Shown here: positions 28,838 through 35,814 of the stretch, in pieces | Position numbering within the stretch: the first letter of the stretch is position 1 | Layout: every line of letters starts with the position of its first letter | NCBI RefSeq assembly: GCF_017833255.1 | Contig: NZ_JAFIBU010000001.1 | Span: 124,001-188,000 of the forward strand | Reading direction: 5' to 3' | DNA: 64,000 bases | Origin: Paenibacillus sp. PvR098 | GTDB taxonomy: Bacteria > Bacillota > Bacilli > Paenibacillales > NBRC-103111 | Made by a program: the position numbers and the translations under genes | The notes under the pieces: generated by a model | Database searches by the model: none | Told to the model about the DNA's origin: nothing | Seen by the model: only the letters and a program-made list of their open reading frames with translations

Positions 28838-29311
28838 ATGAAAATGACCGTGACCTGCAGAAAAGCGACGGAACAAGATATAGATACGCTATACGTAATT
28901 ATTCAAGGCTATGCCGAACAAGGAATTATGCTTCCACGCTCTAAGGAGATGCTCGCCTCGCAGATCGATACGTTCGTCGTGGCAGAGATCGACGGGGATT
29001 TAGTCGGCTGCGGTTCTCTGACAAGGCTTGGACAAGACCTGGTGGAAATCCGTTCCCTCGGTGTGACGAGCGGTTATAAGGGACAGGGGATCGGCAAAGC
29101 GCTTGTCGACTTTCTGGTCCGAGAAGCGAAAGAGCAGGGCATTCCGAAGGTCATGGCGCTGACATACGAAGTGGCATTCTTTCAAAAAAACGGGTTTGCC
29201 GTTGTGGATAAGGAGATCTTTCCCGAGAAGGTATGGAAGGACTGCATCCATTGCAAAAAGCAGCACTGTTGCGACGAAATCGCCGTTCTGAAACGGTTAG
29301 AGACGACTTGA
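28838..29311 (+). CDS. GNAT N-acetyltransferase, ArgA-like
   Basis: A 157-residue GCN5-related acetyltransferase. The acetyl-CoA motif A is SLGVTSGYKGQGIGKALV (about residues 71-88) and motif B is AFFQKNGF near residue 110. The C-terminus VWKDCIHCKKQHCCDEIAV matches the cysteine-rich tail of short ArgA-type N-acetylglutamate synthases, so arginine synthesis is a plausible role (inference). GGTGGGA precedes ATG 28838; a second in-frame ATG lies at 28844. A hairpin terminator follows at the stop codon. Confidence 0.85.
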   Translation: MKMTVTCRKATEQDIDTLYVIIQGYAEQGIMLPRSKEMLASQIDTFVVAEIDGDLVGCGSLTRLGQDLVEIRSLGVTSGYKGQGIGKALVDFLVREAKEQGIPKVMALTYEVAFFQKNGFAVVDKEIFPEKVWKDCIHCKKQHCCDEIAVLKRLETT

Positions 29312-29337
29312 CACAGACCCTTTGGGTCTGTTATTTT
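29308..29337 (+). promoter_or_regulatory. Candidate promoter of the hrcA operon
   Basis: A perfect TTGACA (29308-29313) with TATTTT (29332-29337) at 18-base spacing lies just before CIRCE. The spacer is itself the terminator hairpin of the upstream gene. The -10 is weak, so the assignment is tentative. Confidence 0.45.
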
Positions 29338-29346: not shown

Positions 29347-29373
29347 TTAGCACTCTATAGGATGGAGTGCTAA
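29347..29373 (+). promoter_or_regulatory. CIRCE operator (HrcA binding site)
   Basis: TTAGCACTC (29347-29355), nine bases, GAGTGCTAA (29365-29373): an exact match to the CIRCE consensus, 18 bases before hrcA. HrcA should repress the whole operon through it at normal temperature. Confidence 0.98.
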
Positions 29374-29391
29374 TGAAAAGGTGGGATGAAT

Positions 29392-30426
29392 GTGCTAACC
29401 GAACGTCAACGTCATATTTTGAGCGCCATCGTAGATGATTATATTCGTTCAGCAGAGCCGGTCGGCTCCCGCAGCATATCCAAGCGCGGCAATGTGGGAT
29501 TCAGCCCTGCCACCATCCGCAATGAAATGTCCGACCTGGAGGATTTGGGCTTCCTGGAGCAGCCGCATACGTCGGCCGGGAGGATTCCTTCTCATAAGGG
29601 TTACCGATATTATGTCGATCATTTAATGACTTATAACAATCTCGCGCATCATGAAGTAGATGTGCTAAAGCGATTTTTTGCCGATAGAATGCAGGAGATG
29701 GAACGGGCCATTCAGCACGCTGCGATGATTTTGTCTCAGCTGACCAATTATACGTCTATTGTGCTCGGCCCGGAGATGACCGGCACGACACTGAAGCATC
29801 TGCAGATTGTCCCTCTGACGGAACGGACGGCCGTTGCCATCATTGTAACGAATACCGGCCAGGTAGAAAATAAGACGGTCACGATTCCGGAAGGCATTCC
29901 GATGGGCGAGATCGAGAAGTTCGTCAACCTTCTGAATGCGCGGCTGAAGAACGTGCCGCTGCTTCATTTTAAATCCAAGCTGTACACGGAAATCGCGTCG
30001 GAAATGAGCAGCTTTATTTCCGGTTATGAGGAGCTTCTGATCATGCTCGACACCGTGATGAGCGGCGGAGAAGAAGAACGCGTATTTTTAGGCGGTACGA
30101 CGAACATGCTCAGTCAACCGGAATTCAAAGATGTAGACAAGGTGAAGAGTATTCTCGATCTGCTTGCTGAAACACCGAAACTGGTCCAGTTATTTGCCGG
30201 AACGGCGGACGCAGGCGGAGGAATCCAGGTACGGATCGGAAGCGAGAATAAACTCGAAGCCGTCAATGACTGCAGCTTGATTACCGCTTCGTATTCTATA
30301 GACGGTCAACTGTTGGGCACGATCGGCATACTAGGTCCAACACGGATGGACTATGCTAAAGTGATGAAGCTGCTGGATCATTTGTCCAAGGATTTGACGG
30401 GGCATATGGAGCGCTGGTATAAATGA
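29392..30426 (+). CDS. hrcA: Heat-inducible transcription repressor HrcA
   Basis: A 344-residue repressor. The N-terminal winged helix has the family signature RQRHILSAIVDDYI and SAEPVGSRSISKRG, then FSPATIRNEMSDLEDLGFLE and HTSAGRIPSHKGYRYYVD; the C-terminal GAF-like domain ends with GILGPTRMDYAKVM. The GTG at 29392 (MLTERQ..., as in other HrcA proteins) has AAAGGTGGG seven bases upstream; the ATG at 29386 would nearly touch that site. Its stop overlaps the chaperonin ATG by four bases. Confidence 0.97.
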   Translation: MLTERQRHILSAIVDDYIRSAEPVGSRSISKRGNVGFSPATIRNEMSDLEDLGFLEQPHTSAGRIPSHKGYRYYVDHLMTYNNLAHHEVDVLKRFFADRMQEMERAIQHAAMILSQLTNYTSIVLGPEMTGTTLKHLQIVPLTERTAVAIIVTNTGQVENKTVTIPEGIPMGEIEKFVNLLNARLKNVPLLHFKSKLYTEIASEMSSFISGYEELLIMLDTVMSGGEEERVFLGGTTNMLSQPEFKDVDKVKSILDLLAETPKLVQLFAGTADAGGGIQVRIGSENKLEAVNDCSLITASYSIDGQLLGTIGILGPTRMDYAKVMKLLDHLSKDLTGHMERWYK

Positions 30427-31964
30427 ACCAGTTGAACAACGGAAGTCAGGATGGCGAGGAAGCCTATACAACGCTGAGAAACAACGCCAATGCTATCCGC
30501 GCGATCTGCTCGGCGGTGGAGGGGACGCTTGGGCCCAAAGGGCTTGACACAATGTTGGTAGGCGCTCATGGCGAAGTCATCATTACCAACGACGGCGTCA
30601 CCATTCTGGAGAAGATGGACGTTACCCATCCCGCGGCAAGGCTGCTGATCCAAGTGGCTCGTTCCCAACAGGCGCAGGTGGGCGACGGTACTACGACCGC
30701 CACAGTGCTTGCGGGAGCGCTTGTAGCTGAAGGCGTTGCGCAGGTCGTGCGCGGCGTACCGGTATCCAAGGTCGTGCGCGGGGTGCAGGAGGGCATTGCT
30801 TTCGCTTTGCGTTCGCTGGCTCACCATTCGCGCCCCATCAACGGGCTCGACGATCCCTTGCTGTATCGCATTGCCTTCATCGCGGGGCGTGAGCATGCGG
30901 ATTTGGCTGGACTCGTGATCGAAGGCGCGAAGCGGCTAGGGCTGCAGAAACTGCGGGAGGAGCATTTCCGCTTTTCAGATGTAGTCTTATCCCACGGCAA
31001 GGCGACGGGTGAAGTTTGGCCCGGCCTGCTTATTCAGAAACGGCCGGCCAATGCTCAGCTTGAGTTTCCGCCAGATACGGCTCAGATCCTGCTGCTCCAG
31101 GATGCGTTCGAGCCGGAAGCCATTGATGAAGAGGCTTTGACGACGGATGCCGGGTTCCACAAGCAAATGCAGCTTCGGGAGCAGTTCCGGGAGCTTCTCG
31201 GGAAGCTTGTCGAGCTGCGTGTTGGCTTTATTGCCTCGGAGCGGGGGATCGATCCGGAAGCGGAGCAGTTTTGCACCGATCACGGGATCATGGTGCTGCA
31301 GCGCCTGTCTCGGGTGGAGCTTCGCCGCATCGCCGAATATACTGGCGCCCGGCCGCTTCGTCGCAGCGGGCTGCGCAAGCCTGTCCATGAATTGGCGGGG
31401 TATCTCGGTTATGCCGGGCACGTGGCTTACGACGAACGGCTCGAGATTGTTCGTATGGGCGAGGGCAAAGGCCGAGCGCAAGTATCGATCGTCGTCGGCG
31501 CCAGCACGAGCGAGATAGTCGGCGAAAGGCTTCGCATCGCCCGAGACGCGGCTTCCAGCGTACAGGCCGGGCTGCGCGGCGGGTATTTACCCGGCGGTGG
31601 GGCTGCCGAGATGGCGGTTGCGCATGAGCTCGAACGGTATCGTGAGACGGTTCAGGGCATGGAAGGCTTCGGCATCGCAGCCGTTGTGCAGGCGCTGCGC
31701 AAGCCGCTTTCGCAAATCGTCGTGAATGCGGGCTATAATCCGCTCGAGAAGGTGGAGGAAGCCAAAGCTGCGCAGATTGCTTCGGGCAGCGACAGTCTCG
31801 GTATTGACTGTGACTCTGGAATGGTAAAGGATATGCTGGAGCAGGGAGTGATCGATCCGGCCGAGGTGAAGCTGTATGCTCTTCAAGCGGCAGGAGAGGT
31901 AGCGTCCGCTGTATTGCGCATTCACACCGTCATTAAAATGCGGGATTCGCGTTCCGAGGAGTGA
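30423..31964 (+). CDS. Archaeal-type (group II/III) chaperonin in the dnaK operon
   Basis: A 513-residue TCP-1/cpn60 protein that resembles thermosome/CCT, not GroEL. Equatorial motifs: GPKG (37-40), NDGVTIL (56-62), MDVTHPAAR (65-73), GDGTTTATVLAGAL (87-100). The intermediate hinge GGGAAE is at 391-396 and the ATPase aspartate of the RIARDA segment at about 375. The C-terminal third reads NAGYNPLEKVEEAKAAQ, then VKDMLEQGVIDP and AVLRIHTVIKM, all thermosome-like, and there is no GGM tail. The helical protrusion of group II apical domains appears short or missing (about 215-345). Group III chaperonins of this kind are known in some Bacillota, inside the hsp70 operon. It overlaps hrcA by four bases (ATGA), so it is co-translated with the repressor and under CIRCE control. 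Confidence 0.93.
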   Translation: MNQLNNGSQDGEEAYTTLRNNANAIRAICSAVEGTLGPKGLDTMLVGAHGEVIITNDGVTILEKMDVTHPAARLLIQVARSQQAQVGDGTTTATVLAGALVAEGVAQVVRGVPVSKVVRGVQEGIAFALRSLAHHSRPINGLDDPLLYRIAFIAGREHADLAGLVIEGAKRLGLQKLREEHFRFSDVVLSHGKATGEVWPGLLIQKRPANAQLEFPPDTAQILLLQDAFEPEAIDEEALTTDAGFHKQMQLREQFRELLGKLVELRVGFIASERGIDPEAEQFCTDHGIMVLQRLSRVELRRIAEYTGARPLRRSGLRKPVHELAGYLGYAGHVAYDERLEIVRMGEGKGRAQVSIVVGASTSEIVGERLRIARDAASSVQAGLRGGYLPGGGAAEMAVAHELERYRETVQGMEGFGIAAVVQALRKPLSQIVVNAGYNPLEKVEEAKAAQIASGSDSLGIDCDSGMVKDMLEQGVIDPAEVKLYALQAAGEVASAVLRIHTVIKMRDSRSEE

Positions 31965-32100: not shown

Positions 32101-32724
32101 TTGAACACGGAACAACAACAAGCGGACGGACGCCAGAAGGCAGGCGAACAGCCGGAGCAAGAGGCGAACGCTACATATGAAGCCGCAGCTAATAACGAAG
32201 CGAATGCTGCCGAGGCCGGAGACGGTAACGAGCAGGAGCAGGCAGCGACTGCTTCCGAATCCCAAGATGCTGTCAGTCAGGAGCTTGAGGAGCTTAGGAA
32301 GCAAGTGGAAGAAAATCAAGAGCGTTTCTTAAGAACTCAAGCCGATTTTGATAATTATAGACGGCGCACAATGAAGGAAAAGGAAGAATTCGCGAAGTAC
32401 GCTTCCTTGAAACTCATAGAGCAGCTGCTCCCGGTAGTGGATAATTTCGAACGGGCGCTCACCGCAAGCAAAGACAACAAAGATTACGACGCTCTGGCTA
32501 AGGGCATTGATATGATTTTCCGTCAATTGGACGGAGTGCTGACCAGTGAAGGCTTGAAGCCTATGGAAACGGTGGGCACGCCTTTTAATCCGGAATACCA
32601 TCAGGCGATCATGCAGGTGGATTCGGAGGAGCACGAGGAAGGCATTGTGGTGGAAGAGGTTCAGAAGGGCTACATCCTCAAGGATAAGGTACTTCGCCCT
32701 GCCATGGTCAAAGTGAGTTCATAA
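32101..32724 (+). CDS. grpE: Nucleotide exchange factor GrpE
   Basis: A 207-residue GrpE: an acidic, Glu/Ala/Gln-rich disordered N-terminus (about 1-60), a long coiled coil (ELEELRKQVEENQERFLRTQ, then DFDNYRRRTMKEKEEF), and the beta domain with GTPFNPEYHQAIMQV and VVEEVQKGYILKDKVLRPAMV. It releases ADP from DnaK. The TTG at 32101 is six bases after AAGGAGGTGA, a perfect ribosome site, so TTG is taken as the start. Confidence 0.97.
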   Translation: MNTEQQQADGRQKAGEQPEQEANATYEAAANNEANAAEAGDGNEQEQAATASESQDAVSQELEELRKQVEENQERFLRTQADFDNYRRRTMKEKEEFAKYASLKLIEQLLPVVDNFERALTASKDNKDYDALAKGIDMIFRQLDGVLTSEGLKPMETVGTPFNPEYHQAIMQVDSEEHEEGIVVEEVQKGYILKDKVLRPAMVKVSS

Positions 32725-32776: not shown

Positions 32777-34615
32777 ATGAGTAAAGTAATTGGTATTGAC
32801 CTTGGGACAACAAACTCTTGCGTTGCCGTTATGGAAGGCGGCGAAGCGGTTGTTATCCCTAATGCGGAAGGAAACCGTACAACCCCTTCGGTTATTGGCT
32901 TTAAGAAGGATGGAGAGCGTGTCGTAGGCGAAACGGCAAAGCGACAAGCGATCACAAACCCTGACCGCACGATCATGTCCATCAAGCGTCACATGGGTAC
33001 GAATCATAAAGAGAAAATCGACGATAAAGAATATTCGCCGCAAGAAATTTCCGCTATGATTCTTCAGAAGCTGAAAGCTGATGCGGAAGCATACCTCGGT
33101 CAAACTGTAACACAAGCTGTTATTACGGTTCCGGCCTATTTCAACGACAGCCAACGTCAAGCGACGAAGGATGCCGGTAAAATCGCGGGCCTTGAAGTGC
33201 TTCGGATTGTGAACGAACCGACTGCGGCTGCTCTGGCTTATGGTCTGGAAAAGTCCGAGGATCAAACAATTCTCGTGTATGACCTTGGCGGCGGTACGTT
33301 CGACGTATCCATTCTGGAGCTTGGCGATGGCTTCTTCGAAGTTAAAGCTACCAGTGGGGATAACCGTCTGGGCGGCGACGATTTTGACCAAGTTATTATT
33401 GATTACCTCGTTTCCGAGTTCAAAAAAGAGCACAGTATCGACCTGAGTAAAGATAAAGCCGCGGTTCAACGTTTGAAGGATGCGGCCGAAAAAGCGAAGA
33501 AAGAGCTCTCCGGCGTATTAACGACAACCATTTCCCTGCCGTTTATTACGGTAGTGGATGGCGTACCGCAGCACTTGGAGGTCAACCTGACCCGTGCCAA
33601 ATTCGAGGAGATTTCCGCTCCTTTGGTGGAAAGAACGATGAGTCCAACTCGCCAAGCTTTGAGCGATTCCGGACTTTCGGCCAATCAAATCGATAAAGTG
33701 GTGCTTGTCGGAGGTTCTTCCCGGATTCCTGCTGTACAGGAAGCTGTTAAACGCTTGATTGGTAAAGAGCCGCACAAAGGCGTGAATCCGGATGAAGTCG
33801 TTGCCCTGGGTGCTGCTGTTCAGGCGGGTGTATTGACTGGGGATGTTAAAGACGTTGTCCTGCTCGACGTAACGCCTCTTTCCCTCGGTATTGAAACCGC
33901 AGGCGGTGTGTTCACGAAGATGATCGAGCGCAACACGACGATTCCGACGACGAAATCGCAAGTGTTTACAACCTACGGCGACAACCAGCCAAGCGTAGAA
34001 ATTCACGTGCTTCAGGGTGAGCGTGCGATGGCTGCAGACAATAAATCATTGGGCCGCTTCATCTTGGGAGACATTCCACCGGCGCCACGCGGGATTCCGC
34101 AAATCGAAGTTACCTTTGACATCGACGCGAACGGAATCGTCAACGTGTCTGCTCTCGATAAAGGCACAGGCAAAAGCCAAAAAATCACGATTACTTCCTC
34201 CAGCGGTTTGTCCGACGATGAAGTAGAGCGCATGATGAAGGACGCTGAGGCTCACGCTGAAGAGGACCGTAAGCGTAAAGAGCTTGTGGAAGTCCGCAAC
34301 CAAGCGGATCAGCTCGTTTATTCCGTTGACAAGACGATCAAGGATTTGGGCGACAAGGTCGATCAGGCCGAAATAGATAAAGCCAATGATGCAAAAGAAA
34401 AATTGAAAAAAGCTCTCGAAGGCGATAACTTCGAGGAGATCAAAGCAGCCAGCGATGAGCTTACGGAAATCGTTCAGCAGCTGTCCGTGAAGCTGTATGA
34501 GCAAGCGTCTCAAGATGCTCAGGCTTCCGGTGGTGCAGAGGAAGCGCCGGGCGCTTCCAAAGGTAAAGATAACGTAGTAGATGCCGACTATGAAGTAGTC
34601 GACGACAAGAAGTAA
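32777..34615 (+). CDS. dnaK: Molecular chaperone DnaK (Hsp70)
   Basis: A 612-residue Hsp70 of Gram-positive length. N-terminal ATPase: [13 protein letters not shown] (about 5-17), [17 protein letters not shown] (near residue 170) and [13 protein letters not shown] (near residue 310); linker [16 protein letters not shown]; substrate domain and helical lid; ending [14 protein letters not shown], typical of Bacillota DnaK. AAGGGAGG precedes ATG 32777. It lies 52 bases after grpE. Confidence 0.99.
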
Positions 34616-34698: not shown

Positions 34699-35814
34699 AT
34701 GAGCAAACGCGATTACTATGAAGTGCTCGGGGTTGGTAAGGAAGCTTCTCCGGAAGACCTTAAAAAAGCTTACCGCAAGCTGGCGCGTCAATATCACCCG
34801 GACGTCAATAAGGAAGCCGACGCTGAATCCAAGTTTAAGGAAGCGAAGGAAGCTTACGATGTTTTGAGCGACGATCAAAAGAAAGCGCAGTACGACCGCT
34901 TCGGCCACGTAGATCCGAACCAGGGTATGGGTGGCGGCGGTGGTCAGGATTTCGGCGGCTTCGGCGATATCTTCGACATGTTCTTCGGGGGAGGCGGCCA
35001 GCGCCGTAATCCGAACGCGCCACAGCGGGGGAACGATCTTCAGTACACATTGACGATCGAGTTTAAAGAAGCGGTGTTCGGCAAAAAAATCGATATTCAT
35101 ATTCCGCGGACAGAGACGTGCGAGACGTGCGAAGGGAGCGGGGCGAAGTCGGGTACCAAGCCGCAAACGTGCGGCGTCTGCCATGGCTCCGGCCAGCAGG
35201 AGGTCGTGCAGAACACGGCTTTCGGCCGCATTGTGAACCGCCGCGTCTGCTCGGCCTGCCAAGGCCAGGGCAAAATTATCAAGGACAAGTGCAGTACCTG
35301 CCACGGCTCGGGGAAGGTCAAAAAACAGCGGACAATCAATTTGAACATCCCGGCCGGAGTGGACGATGGAGCTCAGCTCCGTGTAACCGGCGAAGGCGAA
35401 TCCGGAACGCGCGGAGGTCCTTCAGGAGATCTGTATGTCGTTATTCGGGTGAAGCCTCATGATTTTTTCGAGCGCGAGGGAGACGACATCTACTGTGAAG
35501 TGCCGTTGACTTTTGCACAGGCGGCGCTTGGAGACGAGATTGAAATTCCAACCTTGACAGAGAAGGTGAAGCTGAAAATCCCTGCAGGCACCCAAACGGA
35601 TACGTATTTCCGTCTGAAGGGCAAAGGGGTTCCACGCCTTCGCGGGTACGGACAAGGAGATCAGCATGTTAAGGTCGTTGTCGTTACACCGACGAATTTG
35701 AACGATGAACAGAAGGAACTGCTGCGCGAATTTTCAAAGGTTGTTGGAGAGAATACAAATGAGCAGCAGCAATCGATATTTGAACGAATGAAAAAGGCAT
35801 TTTTAGGTGACTAA
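34699..35814 (+). CDS. dnaJ: Chaperone protein DnaJ (Hsp40)
   Basis: A 371-residue type I J-protein: J-domain with YHPDVNK (HPD at about residues 33-35), Gly/Phe-rich segment (about 75-105), four zinc motifs [24 protein letters not shown] and CSTCHGSG (about 142-210), and the C-terminal substrate domain. It stimulates DnaK ATPase. ATG 34699 ([12 protein letters not shown]) has GGGAGTGG upstream; the longer open frame is not used. A strong terminator follows and closes the operon. Confidence 0.98.

Follow-up and report, generated by a model that had tools for sequence, protein, structure and literature searches.

A chaperonin gene lying between hrcA and grpE raises the question of what a second chaperonin would do in a bacterium that also carries GroEL, and whether it acts together with DnaK or HrcA. 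Paenibacillus is, by the habits of the genus, a mesophile lineage of mostly ordinary soil bacteria, and its GroEL, like any other, needs GroES. We analyzed this gene, here called cpn, in the window (the whole stretch of 64,000 nucleotides of Paenibacillus sp. PvR098 DNA under study), in the rest of the genome and in relatives.

The chaperonin gene lies in a CIRCE-preceded dnaK operon

The features of the locus are collected in Table 1. The 513-residue reading frame contains every motif named in the original prediction, namely GPKG (residues 37–40), NDGVTIL (56–62), GDGTTT (87–92), GGGA (391–394), and MLEQGVIDP (471–479). The coordinates likewise confirm the placement of cpn between hrcA and grpE and its overlap with hrcA, the stop codon TGA of hrcA (30424–30426) and the ATG of cpn (30423–30425) being shared as ATGA. 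A CIRCE scan returned one match at three or fewer mismatches against a mean of 0.01 in shuffled sequence; as predicted, this single, exact operator lies ahead of hrcA-cpn-grpE-dnaK-dnaJ, with all genes in one direction. The layout suggests that the five genes form one CIRCE-controlled unit, which HrcA would regulate through this predicted binding site. The promoter-like site 5′ of the CIRCE is no better than chance because one was found where 2.7 were expected in shuffles; a terminator-like hairpin at 29313–29331, also no commoner than in shuffles, sits between its −35-like and −10-like boxes. A simple scan found no promoter between cpn and grpE, which is weak proof of absence. Further neighbors before hrcA were assigned by Pfam as HemN_C radical SAM and GNAT.

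Table 1. Features of the hrcA-cpn-grpE-dnaK-dnaJ locus, in window positions
Feature	Position	Strand	Support
Promoter-like site TTGACA-18-TATTTT, 5′ of CIRCE	29308..29337	+	consensus match only
CIRCE operator (HrcA site), exact inverted repeat	29347..29373	+	0 mismatches
hrcA, heat-shock repressor	29386..30426	+	Pfam HrcA 3.6e-69
cpn, Group III chaperonin (by sequence), 513 aa, ATG start	30423..31964	+	Pfam Cpn60_TCP1 7.9e-102
grpE, TTG start as listed	32101..32724	+	Pfam GrpE 4.6e-54
dnaK	32777..34615	+	Pfam HSP70 8.6e-254
dnaJ, likely ATG at 34699 (ORF listed from 34660)	34699..35814	+	Pfam DnaJ_C 2.4e-58

Such an arrangement had been anticipated to be not new in kind, and this was upheld by the literature: the available parts of two papers describe Group III chaperonin genes as HrcA-regulated (PMC5904260) and, a single exception aside, as members of the dnaK operon (PMC5635000). 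In the open-licence library searched, and judging in part by titles, we found no account of a Paenibacillus Group III chaperonin; Techtmann and Robb 2010 and the 195-species list of PMC5635000 may name the genus.

GroEL and CIRCE elsewhere in the genome

The genome (4.7 Mb, one contig) contains two Cpn60_TCP1 matches, cpn itself and the groEL of a single groES-groEL pair (groES identified by Pfam Cpn10), so the GroEL system whose presence the original prediction had assumed for this lineage is there. The pair is preceded by a CIRCE with one mismatch. At two or fewer mismatches, the genome holds three CIRCE sites, before hrcA, groES, and the Hsp90 gene htpG. The site at htpG (Pfam HSP90) is an exact CIRCE directly 5′ of the gene (G000:C1:2477142-2477168, locus L159), and 18 further CIRCE-like sites were seen in other genomes of the genus, 10 of them before htpG, three before groES-groEL, and five before neither. 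The HrcA regulon of B. subtilis, as listed in the accessible text of PMC8957991, consists of the hrcA-dnaK and groE operons only. Two loci in other genomes (L219 in genome G009 and L231 in genome G016) are CIRCE-preceded groES-groEL pairs and are probably second GroEL copies, since they are only 73 to 82% like the GroEL of the window genome in the matched pieces.

The chaperonin belongs to Group III

Judged by its sequence, the cpn product is a Group III chaperonin. In a tree of 47 rows (28 of them Group III), the Group III rows, including the window protein and Ch-CPN from Carboxydothermus hydrogenoformans, form one clade with support of 96/99 apart from GroEL and the thermosomes, and Group II forms a separate branch (100/99). 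Placement of the window protein in Group I (GroEL) was rejected with a p-AU of 0.019, and placement in Group II with a p-AU of 0.005. A preliminary tree, set aside because GroEL was represented by one row only and two of its rows were ancestral reconstructions, did not recover Group III as a clade, the long-branch GroEL falling among Group III rows. Archaeal thermosome models of NCBIfam outscore the GroEL models, all of them under their cut-offs.

Group III has been defined by a missing nucleotide-sensing loop, six residues shorter than in Group II (PMC5635000, in the part available). The corresponding region measures 24 residues in 27 of the 28 Group III rows (23 in the remaining one) versus 29 to 30 in the seven Group II rows; the loop is absent from the window protein, which therefore lacks this Group II feature. 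The Group I features are missing as well: the protein falls outside the GroEL clade, is not a lid-free form, and has no GGM tail, the last as foreseen. The archaeal-like Group III type of the original prediction is thus borne out by the tree and by class-specific deletions. On careful alignment, the ATPase-site Arg and Asp are intact (R156 and D375, equivalent to Ch-CPN R155 and D373), and both residues occur in all 28 Group III rows and in 40 of 40 Paenibacillus rows.

The best natural relative in the PDB is Ch-CPN (PDB IDs: 5x9u and 5x9v; 416 bits for 5x9u), which is 42% identical to the window protein over about 490 residues and shares with it the deleted loop, the length of the lid, and the ATPase-site Arg and Asp; it differs in its thermophile source (PMC5635000, available text) and in a lid residue, Tyr246, where the window protein has Gln. 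The highest PDB sequence score, 579 bits, belongs to ACIII (PDB ID: 9rwq), a reconstructed ancestral Group III chaperonin and not a natural protein. Archaeal thermosomes (Group II) share the overall fold, the built-in lid, and the motifs, but their nucleotide-sensing loop region is longer by five to six residues and their lid by four. GroEL (Group I) is of the same superfamily, and the groEL of this genome is likewise CIRCE-preceded, whereas its kind has the GGM tail and no built-in lid segment.

Lid and predicted structure

The lid comprises approximately residues 225 to 265 of the window protein. The lid region is 41 residues long in all but one of the 28 Group III rows (40 in that one), both the window protein and Ch-CPN included among the 41-residue cases, versus 45 in all seven Group II rows. 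The AlphaFold2 model (pLDDT 85.2, with values below 50 at residues 1–10, 43–56, and 502–513) predicts lid helices at 236–240 and 242–264, and its top fold matches were 5x9v and 5x9u in one comparison and 9rwq and 5x9v in another. The original prediction had held that the apical part looks short and that a lid-less form or a separate lid was possible. The apical part is not unusually short, and the lid-less and separate-lid forms were rejected because the lid is as long as is usual for Group III and is predicted to be helical.

The lid-tip hydrophobic residues of Ch-CPN (L237, F243, Y246, and F253) are called strictly conserved in the part of PMC5635000 at hand. Three of these are kept in the window protein (L239, F245, and F255), and Tyr246 is replaced by Gln248. 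Across 40 Paenibacillus rows, F253 is fixed, L237 varies in two, F243 in four, and Y246 in 23, the last column holding Y in 17, Q in 13, H in five, F in four, and L in one. As Tyr246 is replaced or variable, the surface proposed to contact clients or partners would be conserved only in part.

Distribution and operon order in relatives

At a match threshold of E ≤ 1e-60, cpn was detected in 25 of 25 genus, 91 of 104 family, 83 of 198 order, and 53 of 299 class genomes; these taxon sets overlap, and the window's own genome is counted in all four. In all 75 loci read (72 genomes, the window's own included), hrcA lies directly before and grpE directly after cpn. The same order recurs at every one of the 80 named loci, which were the best of 427 matches (79 titled Paenibacillus and one Bacilli bacterium) and some of which are the same strains as genomes in the taxon sets, and all 80 have an exact CIRCE 38 to 521 bases 5′ of hrcA. 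At one locus, L019, the CIRCE is present farther out than the stretch first read. The closest named relative among the matches listed, from which the window's own genome records may be excluded, is Paenibacillus naphthalenovorans (92%). Carriers include P. glacialis, P. antarcticus, and P. psychroresistens, which by name only suggest cold-living species.

Thirteen family genomes have no cpn. Twelve of them keep hrcA-grpE-dnaK, with grpE starting approximately 34 to 177 bases 3′ of hrcA, the 13th locus being cut by a contig end, and an exact CIRCE is present in all 13. Absence is commoner outside the family: of 198 order genomes, a set that includes the family itself, 115 have no match. In general DnaK and HrcA can do without cpn, since the cpn-free relatives keep hrcA-grpE-dnaK without it and 246 of 299 class genomes are without a match.

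These loci bear on the idea that the chaperonin is a dedicated HrcA partner, translationally coupled to hrcA, which would fold HrcA and join a feedback loop of the GroEL type. Among the best 80 of 427 matches, 59 loci have ATGA at the end of hrcA, and its ATG shares the cpn reading frame in 56; the overlap is four bases in 39 of 74 loci, and feedback on HrcA in B. subtilis runs through GroEL-GroES (PMC8957991, accessible part). However, other loci keep the same order with gaps of up to 186 bases, GroEL is present as well in the genome, and the 13 cpn-free loci retain hrcA and the exact operator. Because of these cpn-free relatives, a feedback role is possible but unsupported, and we regard a dedicated partnership as quite unlikely.

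Absence, broken copies, and history

On a tree built from HrcA, GrpE, and DnaK stretches (52 rows), the absent rows correspond to five changes, of which strongly supported branches force at least three, and absent plus broken copies to seven; these counts do not separate gain from loss. Two loci carry apparently broken copies of cpn, one as two pieces in two frames (L058, genome G461) and one with the middle missing (L059, genome G027), each beside single, unbroken matches for hrcA, grpE, and dnaK. In genome G016 the frame is shifted in cpn and also in hrcA, perhaps a sequencing error. Three other candidate broken copies (G045, G369, and G277) were rejected, as they read through 508 to 511 residues without a stop.

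The patchy spread in the order and class would suit a recent transfer of cpn into the operon from an archaeal or distant bacterial donor. Against this, the position of cpn within the operon was identical at all loci read, and in 32 loci its distances track those of HrcA-GrpE-DnaK (Mantel r 0.911, with none of 2000 shuffles as high). The cpn and operon trees for these loci, with 12 strong splits each, show no conflict and share 15 of 29 splits. Since distances and splits agree, we lowered our estimate for a transfer, small to begin with, a little further and consider it extremely unlikely. The same agreement could also arise if the operon had been exchanged as one piece, a route still to be reckoned with. 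The simplest reading of these sequences would be an old presence of cpn followed by repeated loss.

The chaperonin gene is under purifying selection

We calculated dN/dS for 11 close pairs with our own Nei-Gojobori script, obtaining 0.011 to 0.121 for cpn, 0 to 0.066 for hrcA, 0.005 to 0.061 for dnaK, and 0.058 to 0.233 for grpE. Median identity to the window over the best 80 of 427 loci was 67.3% for cpn, 69.4% for hrcA, 67.5% for grpE, and 87.3% for dnaK, and between genome G017 and the window genome GroEL is 96% and cpn 72% identical. Based on the dN/dS values and identities, selection maintains cpn, though under looser constraint than GroEL and DnaK. Its faster change relative to dnaK, together with its lack in some relatives and apparent breakage in two others, might be taken to mean that cpn is a decaying relic without function. 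We find this very unlikely: dN/dS of cpn is low in all 11 pairs, none of eight ATPase and motif columns varies across the 40 Paenibacillus rows, and matches are full or near-full length in 24 of the 25 genus genomes, the 25th being the one in which hrcA is frame-shifted too.

Proposed role

The most likely role of the cpn product, as read from sequence, would be that of a second, dispensable folding chamber under HrcA control, which DnaK may supply with clients. By homology, it would be a double-ring, ATP-driven chamber with its own built-in lid and independent of GroES, in which, as in Ch-CPN, nucleotide binding would close an eight-fold ring through the lid. Through the one CIRCE, HrcA would repress cpn together with grpE, dnaK, and dnaJ; protein damage would leave HrcA less active (in B. 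subtilis via GroEL-GroES), the operon would be read, and the Hsp70 parts and the extra chamber would rise together. DnaK-DnaJ-GrpE would then probably pass clients to the chaperonin, a hand-over to Group III chaperonins that is put forward as a proposal in the available parts of PMC5635000 and PMC5220055. The chaperonin would supplement GroEL, not replace it, and would be dispensable over evolutionary time. We infer that the protein assembles into rings and hydrolyzes ATP, that HrcA controls the gene in this organism, and that DnaK hands clients over; the client range is inferred too. Taken as a whole, the explanation by a Group III chamber, HrcA-repressed with the Hsp70 genes and additional to GroEL, is in our judgment probably correct.

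Most Group III carriers come from extreme environments and the prototype from a thermophile (PMC5635000, in its accessible portion). We speculated that the Paenibacillus Group III chaperonin may be a general, temperature-independent Hsp70 partner, whose re-tuned lid, with Tyr246 replaced, would dock DnaK or take nascent HrcA, and which would be kept over much of the family, cold-named species too, and discarded repeatedly as other chaperones take its clients. In this full form the proposal has a small chance of being right.

What is new here is detail: the spread, the fixed order, the purifying selection, and the clean absence in relatives. The gene itself is mostly ordinary, both its type and its operon context being already known. 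It is common in Paenibacillus at a fixed operon place, and close relatives are cleanly without it; these natural pairs with and without the gene offer a possible test system of close relatives in which to ask what a GroES-free second chaperonin does beside GroEL, and whether it does so with DnaK.
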